Shown here: one piece after another, positions 36,526-41,146 of the stretch
Numbering within the stretch: position 1 is the first letter of the stretch
How the letters are laid out: the number at the start of each line of letters is the position of its first letter
From: Ensifer sp. Root278
GTDB lineage: Bacteria > Pseudomonadota > Alphaproteobacteria > Rhizobiales > Rhizobiaceae
Length of the DNA: 64,000 bases
Assembly: GCF_001429285.1 (NCBI RefSeq)
Contig: NZ_LMJJ01000012.1
Location: forward strand, 186,530 to 250,529
Direction of reading: 5' to 3'
The notes under the pieces: generated by a model
What the model was told of the DNA's origin: nothing
The model's input: the letters and a program-made list of their open reading frames with translations, nothing else
Databases searched by the model: none
Program-made: the position numbers and the translations under genes

Positions 36526-37620
36526 TCAGGCTTCGATCTGGACATCTCCCAGCGGCCGCGAGCAGCAGGCGAGGATGTAGCCCTCGTCGATCTCGTCATC
36601 GAGAATACCGCCATTGTGGTTCATCTCGACCTCGCCCGCGACCTTCATCACCCGGCAGGTGCCGCAGATACCGCCCTCGCAGGCAGCGCCGATCCTCACA
36701 CCATTGGCACGCGCCGTCTGCAGGATCGTTTGGCCGGGTTTCGCCTCGACCTCCTTGCCGCTCATGGTGAAGGCGACCTTGGCCGCCTGAACCTCACCAT
36801 CATCGCCGGCACCGGCGCGCACGGCGATCTCTTCCGCGGCAGGTGCTGCCGCCGGCTGGAAGCTCTCCTCGTGATAGCGGGCCATGTCGAAGCCGGCTGC
36901 CTTCAGCATCTCGCGCACACCGCGCATGAACGGTTCCGGACCGCAGCAGAACACCGTGCGCTCCTGGAAGTCGGGAGCGAGCAACGGTAGCTTGGCACCG
37001 TCGATGCGGCCGCGCAGGCCATGCCAGCCGTGACGCGCCTCGTGCCCCTCGACGATGAAGCCGAGGTTCAGCCCGGACATCTGTGTCGCCAGAACCTCGA
37101 GCTCCGAGCGAAACAGAAGGTCGTCCGGCCGGCGAGCACAGGAGATGAAGGTGACATCGGTCTCCGGCACGCAGTCGGCCATCCAGCGCGTCATCGACAT
37201 CATCGGGGTGATGCCGGATCCGGCGGAGATAAACAGGTACTTTTCGCCGGGATGACGGACGAAGCTGAAATCTCCGAGCGGTCCAAAAGCCCGGAGCTTC
37301 ATGCCCGGCTTCAGGTGATCGAACATCCAGCGGGTGCCGACGCTGTCGGCCTGCGCCTTCACCGTGACGGCAATTGACAGCGGTCGCGATGGCGTCGACG
37401 ACAGGGTGTAGGTGCGCATGACCGGTTCGTCGGCGACCGGCAATTCGAGGGTGACGAACTGGCCGGGCAGATAACGAAACCAGGCGGGCTTCTCCGCACG
37501 GAAGGTGAAGGTCATGACATCGGCGGTTTCGACAACCGCCGATGTGCATTCGAGCATCTGCTGCCGGTCGATCCAGACATGCAGTTCGTCGAAATGATGG
37601 AAGGAGGACGCCATCTGCAT
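36526..37620 (-). CDS. gbcB: Ferredoxin reductase subunit of a betaine-type Rieske oxygenase
   Basis: A 364-residue reductase that passes electrons from NADH to the Rieske oxygenase encoded just upstream. It has an FAD domain (MRTYTLSSTPSRPL), an NAD domain (ISAGSGITPMMSMTRWM, then FCCGPEPFMRGVREM) and a C-terminal plant-type 2Fe-2S ferredoxin domain with cysteines in CEGGICGTCR and CCSRPLGD. This order matches GbcB of glycine betaine demethylation. Its ATG is one base from the gbcA stop, so translation is coupled. Both genes lie under the cobalamin riboswitch leader. Confidence 0.85.
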   Translation of the reverse strand: MQMASSFHHFDELHVWIDRQQMLECTSAVVETADVMTFTFRAEKPAWFRYLPGQFVTLELPVADEPVMRTYTLSSTPSRPLSIAVTVKAQADSVGTRWMFDHLKPGMKLRAFGPLGDFSFVRHPGEKYLFISAGSGITPMMSMTRWMADCVPETDVTFISCARRPDDLLFRSELEVLATQMSGLNLGFIVEGHEARHGWHGLRGRIDGAKLPLLAPDFQERTVFCCGPEPFMRGVREMLKAAGFDMARYHEESFQPAAAPAAEEIAVRAGAGDDGEVQAAKVAFTMSGKEVEAKPGQTILQTARANGVRIGAACEGGICGTCRVMKVAGEVEMNHNGGILDDEIDEGYILACCSRPLGDVQIEA

Positions 37621-37621
37621 G

Positions 37622-38866
37622 TCAGGCGACCTTTGAGAGCGGAGCCGCATCGCCCTGCAGGCGCTGCTCCATGAACTTGCAGTACCATTCGACGAACTGC
37701 ATCACGCCACCCTCGTGCTCCGGCGAATACGGACCGGGCTCATAGGCCGGCGAGCGGATGCCGAAGGCATTTTCCTCGACGATCTGGCGATCCTGGTCGT
37801 TGGTCTCGGTCCAGACATGAGTCAGATCCTCGAGCGTGTAGTCGACACCTTCGACCGCGTCCTTGTGGACCAGCCACTTCGTTGTCACCTGCGTGAGTTC
37901 CGGCCCCAGCGGCAACACGCGGAAGGTGATGGCGTGATCCGAAAGCACGTGGTTCCAGGTCGTGGGGTAATGGAACATCAGGAGCGTGCCGATCTGCTTC
38001 TGCCTGACATCGGCCGACAGCGCCCTTTTTACGGCGGGCGCACCCGACATGGTGTAGCTTTCGGCATTATCGACCAGCGGCATGCGCGCGGCGCGGAACT
38101 GGCCGGTCGGCGACATCCGGAACTCGCTCGGCAGGCCCTCGGCCTCGCACTTCGCCCAATGGGCGGCAATCACCGGATCGTCCTTGGCGCCCTGCACCCC
38201 GGTCGCGGTCGGCGCTTCCGGATAGGTCCGGCAGAGTTCGGGGTGATTGGCGGCGCAGTGGTAGCACTCGCGGTTGTTCTCCCAGACGAGCTTCCAGTTG
38301 CCCTTTTCGATGATGGTGCTTTCGAAGGCGACCTTGGTCTCTCCCAGCCGGTGCGGCGCGAGGTAGGGGAATGCCAGCTCGCGGAAGGCGGCGAAATCCG
38401 CCGGCGTCTCCGACAGGTTGATGAAGATGTAGCCGCCGACCGTTTCGCAATGGATCTGCTTCAGGCTGTGGGCTGCCTTGTCGAAGTCTTCGCCCATCTG
38501 GCGTGCGAAGAGCAGCGAGCCGTCGAGCTCGTAGGTCCATTGATGATAGGGACAGACGAGCTTTGCCGAAGAGCCCTTGTGCTGCGTGCAGACGCGGGAG
38601 CCGCGGTGGCGGCAGGAGTTGTGGAGCGCGCGGATCGTGCCCTGGCGATCGCGGGTGATGACGACCGGATAGTCGCCGACCTGGACGGTGAAATAGTTGC
38701 CGGCCCGCGGGATTTCGCAATCGTGGCCGATGAACAGCCAATCCCGATACCAGATGTTTTCCAGGTCCTGCCGGTAATAGTCGGGGTCGATGTAGAAGGC
38801 CCGATCGAGGCTGTAGCCGTCACGCCGGCCCTTCAGCTTGCGAAGCATATCGGTCTTGGTATCCAT
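37622..38866 (-). CDS. gbcA: Rieske oxygenase subunit, glycine betaine demethylase type
   Basis: The catalytic subunit of a Rieske non-haem iron monooxygenase, 414 residues. The Rieske cluster ligands are CRHRGS near residue 85 and CPYHQW near 105. The mononuclear iron site is NNRECYHCAANHPELC near 198-213. In Pseudomonas, GbcA and GbcB demethylate glycine betaine to dimethylglycine with release of formaldehyde; related enzymes act on stachydrine or carnitine derivatives, so the substrate is a family inference. The ATG at 38866 follows AGGACAGGAC, which is complementary to a segment upstream. It is the first gene after a cobalamin riboswitch. Confidence 0.87.
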   Translation of the reverse strand: MDTKTDMLRKLKGRRDGYSLDRAFYIDPDYYRQDLENIWYRDWLFIGHDCEIPRAGNYFTVQVGDYPVVITRDRQGTIRALHNSCRHRGSRVCTQHKGSSAKLVCPYHQWTYELDGSLLFARQMGEDFDKAAHSLKQIHCETVGGYIFINLSETPADFAAFRELAFPYLAPHRLGETKVAFESTIIEKGNWKLVWENNRECYHCAANHPELCRTYPEAPTATGVQGAKDDPVIAAHWAKCEAEGLPSEFRMSPTGQFRAARMPLVDNAESYTMSGAPAVKRALSADVRQKQIGTLLMFHYPTTWNHVLSDHAITFRVLPLGPELTQVTTKWLVHKDAVEGVDYTLEDLTHVWTETNDQDRQIVEENAFGIRSPAYEPGPYSPEHEGGVMQFVEWYCKFMEQRLQGDAAPLSKVA

Positions 38867-38984
38867 GTCCTGTCCTCATGCGCCATGTTTCGGAGAGGCA
38901 GGACAGGAACCCGCATGGGCGCACGCCCATGCGTTTTAGGCTCCGATCCGGCTGCCCGCCGCAACCCGTTACGGTTATGTCTGT
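38867..38984 (-). promoter_or_regulatory. Expression platform of the gbcA cobalamin riboswitch
   Basis: The leader between aptamer and gbcA has three notable pieces. The segment at 38952-38965 is complementary to the riboswitch core at 39093-39106 (GTTGCGGG with CCCGCAAC, plus GCAG with CTGC). A perfect 22-base palindrome lies at 38912-38933. TCCTGTCCT, transcribed from 38900-38908, is the exact complement of AGGACAGGA, transcribed from 38868-38876, which contains the ribosome binding site one base from the ATG. No U-run follows on this strand, so translational control is more likely than termination. Confidence 0.6.
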
Positions 38985-39165
38985 CAAGGCTGGTTTCCGG
39001 GCTCAGGAGCCGTCCTTCGAAGGACCAGCCCGGCGCCTTCCCGGACGGAAAACCGTCCAGTGGCCTTTTGCCGAGGCTTTCGCTCCACCACCGTTGCGGG
39101 GGCAGCGCCGGGATTTGACCGGCTTCCCAATTCTCCGCCTTCCCCTTTGGAAGACGACACCTTGA
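38985..39165 (-). promoter_or_regulatory. Cobalamin (B12) riboswitch
   Basis: On the minus strand the aptamer hallmarks appear in order: TTGGGAAGCCGGTCAAATCC, then GCTGCCCCCGCAAC, AAAGGCCACTGG, GGGAAGGCGCC, and the closing GAGCCCGGAAACCAGCC. These match the cobalamin riboswitch consensus (GGGAA..AATCC, CTGCCCCCGCAAC, GCCACTG, GGGAAGG, GAGCCxGGAxACCxGCC). gbcA is the first gene downstream on the same strand, 119 bases on. Cobalamin riboswitches normally precede B12 synthesis or uptake genes or B12-independent isozymes. Confidence 0.92.
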
Positions 39166-39492
39166 GTAAGGATATGTAAGCGCGGAAGGCGCCTCGGCAG
39201 GCGCCGGATAGCGACATTCAATTCCAGAATGACGACACGATCGAAACCGCCTTTTGGAAACGGATGCGAGAATTTTTCACTTTATAAACATATAGATAGA
39301 TCAAAAATTGGGCAGATGCCGTCTTTTGTGACTGACATGACGCAGACACAGGAAGGCTTCGCCCGTTTGCGACATTCCCATGAATGTGCAGGGGCATCTT
39401 CCGCGAACGAAAGGAAATCCTTCATTAACCATAAGCCACTAGGCTTGCCGGCGGACGAAGATGTCCGGCAGGCAGATGGCACACTGACGATC

Positions 39493-40092
39493 ATGGCAAA
39501 GTTCAGATATTACGACGCTGCGGCCGAGAAGCCGCCGGCGGTCATGCCGAAGACGGCCGTTCACACCGAGTTTCTGCGCACCGGCAGGATCAACCGCCGG
39601 CAATGGCTGCCGAGCGAGCGACGGTATCTGAGCTACGAAGAAGTCGCGGACAGGACCGGCAAGAAGCTCGCGACCGCCGGTGACACGACGCACAAGCGGA
39701 TCAACGGCTTTCATGCCTCGATCCAGTTTCCCAAGCTGATTTTTCACCGCACGCTCGTCGGCAAGCCGCATCTCGGCTATTGCCATGTGACGGCGGCGCG
39801 GACGGCGGTCACGCCTTCCAAGGACATCACCTGGTCGTTCTACTTCGCCAATTTCTTCAGCGACCTTGGTGATGAGACGCATTTCTTCGACCGTATCCAG
39901 AGCGGCTATTCCCGCATGTATTTCGCGGTCGCGATCGAGCCGAACGCCGAAGACGGACAGATGGTCATCAACCGCAACGTCCGCGACAACGGGCTCCTCT
40001 TCCGCACGGACGACCCCAAGGTTGCTCTCAAGAACGTGCTGATGCTGGGTGCCCGGGACTCCGCGCTGCGCCGCATTATCCGCAGTCTCTGA
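39493..40092 (+). CDS. Conserved rhizobial hypothetical protein (DUF6656-like)
   Basis: A 199-residue protein with no signal peptide or membrane segment. I recognise only a resemblance to a Rhizobiaceae family annotated DUF6656; function is unknown. It is rich in aromatic residues (DITWSFYFANFFSDLGDETH, then FFDRIQSGYSRMYFAVAIEP). The frame is open back to 39229, but ATG at 39493 gives MAKFRYYDAAAEKPP and codon use changes there; the upstream 260 bases are AT-rich and look like a promoter region. The gap 38867-39492 otherwise holds the riboswitch leader of the divergent gbcA gene. Confidence 0.75.
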   Translation: MAKFRYYDAAAEKPPAVMPKTAVHTEFLRTGRINRRQWLPSERRYLSYEEVADRTGKKLATAGDTTHKRINGFHASIQFPKLIFHRTLVGKPHLGYCHVTAARTAVTPSKDITWSFYFANFFSDLGDETHFFDRIQSGYSRMYFAVAIEPNAEDGQMVINRNVRDNGLLFRTDDPKVALKNVLMLGARDSALRRIIRSL

Positions 40093-40171
40093 GGCAGCAA
40101 CCGAACGCCCCCAAAAAAATCGTTCTGTTTTCCCGGCACGTCCGTTAAGGAAGCGTCGGAAAGGAAACGGC

Positions 40172-41146
40172 ATGGCAGAGATCATCGACACAGGCAGGGA
40201 ACCGGACCGGGCGATCGAACGCGCCTGCGCCGTTCTTGCCGAAGGCGAACCGGTCGCCATTCCCACCGAAACCGTCTATGGCCTTGCCGCCGACGCCACC
40301 AATCCCGATGCGATCAGCCGCATCTACGAGATGAAGGGCCGGCCGCGCTTCAATCCGCTGATCTCGCATGTCTCCGACATGGCGATGGCCGAGGCCCATG
40401 TGCGCTTCGACCCGATTTCCCGACGCCTGGCGGAAACCTTCTGGCCCGGACCCCTGACGCTGATCTTGCCGCAGCGGCCCGATAGCAGCGTGCATGCGCT
40501 GGCCTCGGCCGGCCTCGACACGCTTGGCATCCGCATGCCCGACGGCTTTTCGCGCCGGGTGATCGCCCGCTTCGGGCGGCCGCTCGCAGCGCCCAGCGCC
40601 AACACCTCGGGCAAGATCAGCCCGACCAGTGCGGTCCATGTCGATGCGGATCTCGGCGAAAAGCTGAAACTGATCCTCGACGCAGGCCCGGCCGAAATCG
40701 GCTTGGAGTCCACGATCATCAAGGTCGATGGCGACGAGATCCGGCTGCTCCGCCCCGGCGGCCTCGATGCCGCAGAAATCGAGCGCCTGCTCGATCGTCC
40801 GGTGATCCGACCGGAAACGGCGGGAGCAACGATCGAGGCGCCGGGCATGCTGGCCTCCCACTACGCGCCCGGCGCGGCCGTCAGGCTCGATGTTGCCGAT
40901 GTGCGTGCGGGCGAGGCCTTGATCCGCTACGGCGGCGGCCGGATCGCCGGCGAGGAACAGGCGGCCATCGTTCTCGATCTCAGCCCGACCGGAAATCTTC
41001 ACGAAGCGGCAGCCAATCTCTTCGACTACATGAAGCGGGCCGACGCCAGCGGCGCTGCGACGATCGCCTTCGGGCCGATCCCTTCGGAAGGATTGGGAGA
41101 AGCGATCATCGACCGGCTGCAGCGTGCGGCGGCGCCGCGAGGGTGA
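40172..41146 (+). CDS. L-threonylcarbamoyladenylate synthase (Sua5 type)
   Basis: Makes threonylcarbamoyl-AMP from threonine, bicarbonate and ATP, the first step of tRNA t6A37 synthesis. The 324 residues include the TsaC/YrdC domain (PTETVYGLAADATNP near residue 31, MKGRPRFNPLISH near 56, APSANTSGKISPTS near 145) and a C-terminal Sua5 domain (SHYAPGAAVRLDVAD onward), which marks the longer Sua5 form. ATG at 40172, with GGAAAGGAAA upstream, gives MAEIIDTGRE. It stands ahead of a flavin dehydrogenase gene, 144 bases away. Confidence 0.93.
   Translation: MAEIIDTGREPDRAIERACAVLAEGEPVAIPTETVYGLAADATNPDAISRIYEMKGRPRFNPLISHVSDMAMAEAHVRFDPISRRLAETFWPGPLTLILPQRPDSSVHALASAGLDTLGIRMPDGFSRRVIARFGRPLAAPSANTSGKISPTSAVHVDADLGEKLKLILDAGPAEIGLESTIIKVDGDEIRLLRPGGLDAAEIERLLDRPVIRPETAGATIEAPGMLASHYAPGAAVRLDVADVRAGEALIRYGGGRIAGEEQAAIVLDLSPTGNLHEAAANLFDYMKRADASGAATIAFGPIPSEGLGEAIIDRLQRAAAPRG

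Follow-up and report, generated by a model that had tools for sequence, protein, structure and literature searches.

The stretch of DNA analysed here (the window) comprises 64,000 nucleotides (nt) of the Ensifer sp. Root278 genome (contig NZ_LMJJ01000012.1, positions 186,530 to 250,529) and carries on its minus strand a cobalamin (vitamin B12) riboswitch ahead of two genes for a Rieske oxygenase and its reductase, here called gbcAB (Table 1). A cmscan search of the 64 kb with Rfam 15 returned the Cobalamin family RF00174 as the sole gathering-level match, scoring 110.4 bits against a gathering threshold of 31.5, with an E value of 8.5e-27 and coverage of the whole model. The original prediction, made from the sequence alone, had placed an aptamer at 38985-39165 on the minus strand; this interval lies within the Rfam match, and the Infernal search that it had proposed thus gave a full-length match far over the threshold. 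Its further statement that the first gene past the aptamer is a Rieske oxygenase with its reductase agrees with the Pfam domains on both proteins, which are encoded on the same strand. From the 3′ end of the aptamer, about 105 nt lead to the oxygenase ATG at 38866, and the gene calls place no gene in this interval. The next upstream genes, encoding a DUF6656 protein (from 39445) and TsaC, are oriented opposite to gbcAB. Because no gene intervenes and the upstream neighbours face the other way, the gene arrangement identifies the oxygenase/reductase pair as the target of the riboswitch, and no alternative target fits.

Beyond the aptamer, the leader forms a predicted hairpin with a G-rich loop. 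The loop consensus was found in 97 of the 112 stretches having a recognisable aptamer 3′ end, and the stem covaries, as judged from sequence only; the 15 stretches without the consensus include degenerate copies and one-letter variants. Cobalamin riboswitches make a loop-loop contact between the C-rich loop of the aptamer and a downstream hairpin, and we take the G-rich loop here to be the usual partner in that contact.

Table 1. The gbcAB locus: positions in the window, strand, and basis of each assignment
Feature	Position	Strand	Basis
Cobalamin riboswitch aptamer	38971..39179	-	RF00174, 110.4 bits, model 1-189 of 189
Conserved aptamer box GCTGCCCCCGCAAC with C-rich loop	39093..39106	-	Read from sequence; exact in most relatives
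GCCACTG box of the aptamer	39058..39064	-	Read from sequence; missing in four degenerate copies
Post-aptamer hairpin, G-rich loop GCGGCGGGC complementary to C-rich loop	38948..38967	-	Loop consensus and stem covariation
TCCTGTCCT, complementary to the ribosome-binding region, possible sequestering arm	38900..38908	-	Near-identical leader L024; read from sequence; mixed support
AGGACAGGA, ribosome-binding region ahead of ATG 38866	38868..38876	-	Read from sequence
GbcA-type Rieske oxygenase, 414 aa	37622..38866	-	Pfam, NCBIfam, PDB, active-site motif
GbcB-type reductase, 364 aa	36526..37620	-	Pfam, NCBIfam

Identity of the oxygenase and reductase

Pfam assigned a Rieske domain (64.2 bits) and a Ring_hydroxyl_A domain (119.2 bits) to the oxygenase, and FAD_binding_6, NAD_binding_1, and Fer2 domains to the reductase, the start of which was taken at 37620 (the longest open frame would begin at 37650). 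The Rieske and mononuclear-iron patterns ENxRECYHC...H and C.H..C..H were present in all 53 orthologues described below. Read by eye, the WENNRECYHC motif places an asparagine at the position of CntA Tyr203, a replacement described as the mark of clade Vb, the glycine betaine and proline betaine demethylases (PMC7948474). By its sequence markers (Rieske, mononuclear-iron, Cys-pair, and Asn), the pair belongs to group Vb, the betaine demethylase type. To this extent the earlier label gbcAB stands; in its narrower sense it does not, as the best NCBIfam models, GbcA for the oxygenase (NF058607, 511.8 bits) and GbcB for the reductase (NF058606, 393 bits), were matched below their cut-offs of 670 and 500, respectively. 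Because both cut-offs were missed, the pair is described as GbcA/GbcB-type and not as an equivalog. The GbcA model leaves the substrate unsettled, since it gave nearly the same score to Stc2, the stachydrine demethylase of S. meliloti (498.3 bits), and to the S. meliloti orthologue of the window oxygenase (513.8 bits). The top PDB sequences were 3n0q (541 bits) and 3vca/4qup (528 bits), and we take the latter two to be Stc2. S. meliloti carries both genes, the orthologue (82% identity, L133) with the riboswitch and Stc2 (56%, L134) without it. An identity as stachydrine demethylase is made less likely by Stc2 being that separate, riboswitch-free gene, although the GbcA model does not tell the two apart. 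Glycine betaine is the likely substrate. A homologue in Paracoccus versutus (71%) has a betaine-type context, adjoining genes for an AraC-type regulator, formaldehyde dehydrogenase, a BCCT carrier, FolD, and electron-transfer flavoprotein; within the window, no betaine-catabolic genes were found beside gbcAB.

GbcAB of Pseudomonas and Chromohalobacter and Stc2 of S. meliloti share this architecture, in which a Rieske demethylase of group Vb is paired with a reductase encoded separately. Unlike them, the pair studied here has a cobalamin riboswitch in front and scores under the NCBIfam cut-offs; in Pseudomonas, a protein regulator, GbdR, is used.

Distribution of the riboswitch in Rhizobiaceae

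A draw of 151 Rhizobiaceae genomes gave 67 with an oxygenase match at E 1e-100. Rows at 65% identity or more (53) were treated as orthologues and those at 42-57% (17) as paralogues, the 65% line having been chosen after the gap between 65% and 57% had been seen. The riboswitch was found upstream of 37 of the 53 orthologues (23 by Rfam, 14 by exact boxes; all 16 negatives by Rfam) and of none of the 17 paralogues. A second set of named loci, the best 80 of 588, contained 67 with intact boxes, four with degenerate copies, eight without the switch, and one that was cut off. Positives in this set were called by exact boxes (L069 also by Rfam) and the eight negatives by Rfam; one of the degenerate copies was scored by Rfam (57.9 bits) and three were grouped with it by alignment. 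One genome appears in both sets under different calls, as a positive among the 53 (G094, 61.3 bits) and as a degenerate copy among the named loci (L081). The survey for the riboswitch before gbcA suggested by the original prediction thus revealed wide conservation in the family. A global loss of cobalamin riboswitches from the switch-less genomes was ruled out, since each of the 53 contains at least one somewhere.

Association with MtgB and MtgC

In Ruegeria pomeroyi, MtgBCDE provides a cobalamin-dependent route, and glycine betaine use is reported to require MtgC and MtgD, with GbcAB as the oxidative alternative; parts of the MtgB, MtgC, and DUF1638 type are named there as components of the enzyme system by which aerobic Alphaproteobacteria transfer methyl groups from glycine betaine (PMC12478193). 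The Ensifer genome has MtgB-like, MtgC-like, and DUF1638 genes. If gbcAB serves as a backup, the switch should track this B12-dependent demethylase, and if betaine breakdown supplies corrin synthesis, it should track B12 biosynthesis. Within Rhizobiaceae, to which all MtgB comparisons refer, and with MtgB counted at 75% identity or more, the gene was found in 37 of the 53 genomes, that is, in 36 of the 37 with the riboswitch and in one of the 16 without it (both, riboswitch only, MtgB only, neither: 36/1/1/15; Fisher p = 4e-11). MtgC occurred in the identical set of 37 genomes. At G003:C1:996221-996916, the MtgC match (92% identity) contains one in-frame TGA.

A prediction of which named genomes should lack MtgB, fixed beforehand, was then tested on the 49 of the 80 named loci that the MtgB search covered. 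MtgB was present in 36 of 36 genomes with an intact switch, 0 of 4 with a degenerate one, and 2 of 8 without it; one genome, L105, was excluded as not assessable because its locus has only 41 nt of upstream sequence, and MtgB is absent there. In L093, which has an intact switch, the MtgB match covers residues 1-399 only. Eight named loci were removed as duplicates, and the 40 new genomes gave 31/3/2/4 in the same order of classes. The combined 93 genomes gave 67/4/3/19, all four riboswitch-only genomes carrying degenerate copies; with degenerate copies counted as absent, the figures became 67/0/3/23 (Fisher p = 7e-19, uncorrected for kinship).

The alternative explanation offered originally was that a shortage of B12 induces the degradation of betaine, supplying glycine and one-carbon units for 5-aminolevulinic acid (ALA) and thence corrin. 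Betaine is used in B12 fermentations, where it is said to boost ALA supply (PMC8123684), and cobH, a gene of B12 biosynthesis, is present in the Ensifer genome. Across the 53 genomes, however, the riboswitch proved independent of cobH (31/6/13/3; Fisher p = 1.0) while tracking mtgB and mtgC: cobH occurs in 31 of 37 switch genomes and in 13 of 16 switch-less ones, six genomes lacking cobH keep the switch, and thirteen possessing it have none. The pair test described below gave the same answer for cobH (median p = 1). On these grounds we dismissed the supply of glycine to ALA as the main explanation, and we consider it quite improbable.

Kinship and loss of the riboswitch

Relatives share both traits, and the co-occurrence of riboswitch and MtgB might thus stem from kinship and have no functional meaning, the riboswitch controlling gbcAB for another reason. 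On a protein tree of the 53 GbcA sequences, each trait changes at least 10 times. On supported branches, MtgB is present in one member and absent from the other in eight independent pairs; the switch agrees in 7.5 of them on average and is never opposite (median p = 0.016, range 0.008-0.031). The 93-row tree gave agreement in 7.3 of 8 pairs (median p = 0.016, range 0.008-0.063), rising to 7.8 of 8 with degenerate copies counted as absent (median p = 0.008). The kinship argument retains some force in that the independent pairs number only eight and the tree is that of a gene. Against it stand the lack of any contrary pair, the absence of any association with cobH on the same tree, and the traces of loss in mtgB-less relatives of switch-bearing strains. 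The aptamer core is deleted in two MtgB-less strains, R. freirei PRF 81 and R. lusitanum SEMIA 4060, both flanks of which align to R. lusitanum Opo-234, a strain with MtgB and an intact switch. Four more MtgB-less strains have kept the 5′ half of the aptamer and lost the GCCACTG box and the core that follows it. Taken together, these observations make mere kinship a very remote explanation in our estimation.

Predicted B12-regulated genes and corrinoid genes of the genome

Six RF00174 matches were found in the whole genome, located before nrdHIEF, an ABC-transporter region, bluB, cbtA, a cobU-led cluster, and gbcAB. The downstream genes were taken from gene calls, with families checked for nrdH, nrdE, nrdF, bluB, cbtA, and cobU; the substrate of the ABC-transporter region is uncertain and probably a corrinoid. 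NrdEF is a ribonucleotide reductase that works without B12, and the same genome encodes the B12-dependent NrdJ (474 bits). The N-terminal domain of MetE was not found in this genome.

The genome holds four MttB-family genes. One of these gives 1136 bits to PDB 4yyc, presumably an S. meliloti structure, and adjoins genes for an MtgC-like corrinoid protein and a DUF1638 protein. Such abundance fits a broader role, in which the switch would serve corrinoid methyl-transfer metabolism at large (all MttB-type substrates, the folate/methionine balance) and not the backup of one step. MtgB-less genomes are without MttB-family matches at E 1e-80, which would allow a link of the switch with corrinoid methyl transfer in general, and MtgC of R. 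pomeroyi is reported to connect betaine use with methionine synthesis (PMC12478193). This broader role nevertheless appears unlikely: the operon under control is the betaine-demethylase-type pair only, and in two switch genomes of different genera (e.g. G028, G042) the single MttB-family match at E 1e-80 is MtgB itself.

Proposed control by B12

These results lead us to propose, with considerable confidence, that gbcAB encodes a B12-switched, B12-independent backup of the cobalamin-dependent demethylase MtgB/MtgC. With plentiful B12, the leader riboswitch would keep the oxygen-dependent betaine demethylase off, and a parallel cobalamin route, in which the methyltransferase MtgB and the corrinoid protein MtgC pass the methyl group to folate, would probably demethylate the same compound. 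Repression by B12 is the usual mode of the cobalamin riboswitch family, and by this analogy a shortage of B12 likely turns gbcAB on. Once mtgB and mtgC are lost, gbcAB would be the sole route, and the switch would be lost or decay.

The level at which the leader acts may be translation, through sequestration of the ribosome-binding site (RBS). The gbcAB leader contains a 9-nt complement of the RBS region, and over 54 non-redundant leaders such complementarity exceeded that of shuffled sequences (z = 5.9). Sequestration is a possibility suggested by this modelling, set against the predicted pairing of the RBS region in the same leaders, which fell below that of shuffles (0.47 vs 0.54, z = -3.8).

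Along with this pairing result, several observations weigh against the proposed backup role. Three MtgB-bearing genomes have no switch (G102 at locus L202, and the Ciceribacter-type L112 and L120), and the last two contradicted the prediction made beforehand. Other cobalamin riboswitches are somewhat fewer in switch-less genomes (mean 2.9 vs 4.0), and the MtgB-less genomes, as noted, are without any MttB-family match. The kinship control shares the narrow basis given above, being drawn on the GbcA gene tree and not on a species tree. As to substrate, the oxygenase and reductase miss their NCBIfam cut-offs, the GbcA model rates Stc2 almost equally, and substrates are reported to vary among MttB-family enzymes (PMC12478193). 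At L202, genes for pterin-binding, homocysteine S-methyltransferase, DUF1638, MtgC-like, and MtgB-like proteins are grouped together.

Relatives outside Rhizobiaceae

A draw of 385 genomes from the class, with a Phaeobacter protein as query, gave 12 matches at E 1e-120 including the Ensifer genome; the other 11 are GbcA/Stc2-like genes of unproven orthology. Seven of these 11 related genes, from other alphaproteobacterial families, are immediately preceded by a riboswitch in the same orientation. It also precedes homologues in Phaeobacter gallaeciensis, Ruegeria TM1040, Cereibacter azotoformans, and Gemmobacter fulvus, amid differing neighbours; the Ruegeria, Cereibacter, and Gemmobacter loci were selected through DNA similarity to the Phaeobacter riboswitch and speak for recurrence, not frequency. 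The homologues of Paracoccus versutus, Agrobacterium 1D1609, and Roseivivax, selected without riboswitch similarity, showed no riboswitch.

These occurrences incline us, on balance, towards a wider picture in which B12, across Alphaproteobacteria of soil and sea, picks by riboswitch between two chemically unrelated betaine demethylases. With B12, corrinoid methyl transfer would demethylate glycine betaine or a close relative, the methyl group going to folate and methionine, and without B12 an oxygen-dependent reaction yielding formaldehyde would do so; the switch would be selected only while both enzymes coexist and shed once the corrinoid route is gone. A point against this picture is that the Phaeobacter protein is about 65% identical to S. 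meliloti Stc2-type proteins and 58% to the window protein, so the switched enzyme of Rhodobacterales may act on another betaine. For this reason, we hold the wider picture slightly less firmly than we otherwise would. At L218:2839-3362, two cobalamin riboswitches, one on each strand, adjoin each other back to back, and the GbcA-like gene follows one of the two.

Comparison with known systems and implications

The logic of the proposed arrangement would be that known for metE and metH and, within the Ensifer genome itself, that of nrdHIEF and nrdJ. The metE riboswitch resembles that of gbcAB in joining a B12-sensing leader and a B12-independent enzyme that has a B12-dependent counterpart, and a metE element of Mesorhizobium loti is listed under 'B12-dependent or alternative metabolic pathways' (PMC5948670). 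The riboswitch before nrdHIEF, together with nrdJ, applies the same logic. These pairs differ from ours in purpose, metE/metH being biosynthetic and nrdHIEF/nrdJ serving DNA-precursor synthesis, whereas gbcAB/mtgBC would be catabolic and break down an osmolyte. In contrast to metE and metH, moreover, the chemistries of gbcAB and mtgBC are unrelated, one consuming oxygen and releasing formaldehyde and the other transferring a methyl group to folate. Betaine demethylation would thereby join the processes for which a B12 riboswitch chooses between a version that needs B12 and one that does not.

The S. meliloti element has been listed before. Compilations give the element ahead of SMc00982 as a cobalamin riboswitch and, in the entries concerned, add no more (PMC2245857, PMC2573895), and SMc00982 is described elsewhere as 'likely encoding a dioxygenase' (PMC2848018). 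In S. meliloti Ak57, the riboswitch precedes the orthologue (82%), and the SMc00982 element is very likely the same as that of the window, the orthology of SMc00982 being drawn from position and annotation rather than sequence. In the open-licence literature, we found no published explanation of the element and no link between a riboswitch and betaine demethylase; the main text of PMC12478193 contains the word 'riboswitch' once, in the title of a reference about a glycine riboswitch. Our proposal offers a function for an S. meliloti element listed since 2007 without one. It is also relevant to the second pathway for glycine betaine in S. meliloti, which Barra et al. inferred according to PMC12478193. 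The prediction is that B12 supply decides which enzyme degrades a major osmolyte. If true, the breakdown of this abundant compound in the rhizosphere and the ocean would depend directly on B12 supply, and the coupled loss of the switch and the B12-dependent pathway would exemplify a regulator retained only while its choice exists.

Neighbouring genes and other observations

The divergent DUF6656 gene and tsaC occupy 39445-41146 of the window, and gbcAB has similar neighbours in a number of other rhizobia, S. meliloti among them. At seven gbcA loci that were compared, tsaC and DUF6656 lie near gbcAB with or without the switch, and their order varies. Elsewhere in the genome, on contig C40 (L018:3197-11706), an MttB-family gene lies in one run with genes for two SoxA/GcvT-like proteins and for a Rieske paralogue (34% to the window oxygenase); by its gene content, the run is a second cluster of the quaternary-amine type. 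An Rfam PYLIS_3 match at L008:423-521 falls, by coordinates, inside the mttB gene of that cluster. On the contig of the window, about 60 kb from gbcAB, another MttB-family gene (55% to MtgB) lies beside a 687-aa NADH:flavin oxidoreductase-like gene (L020:6403-10056).

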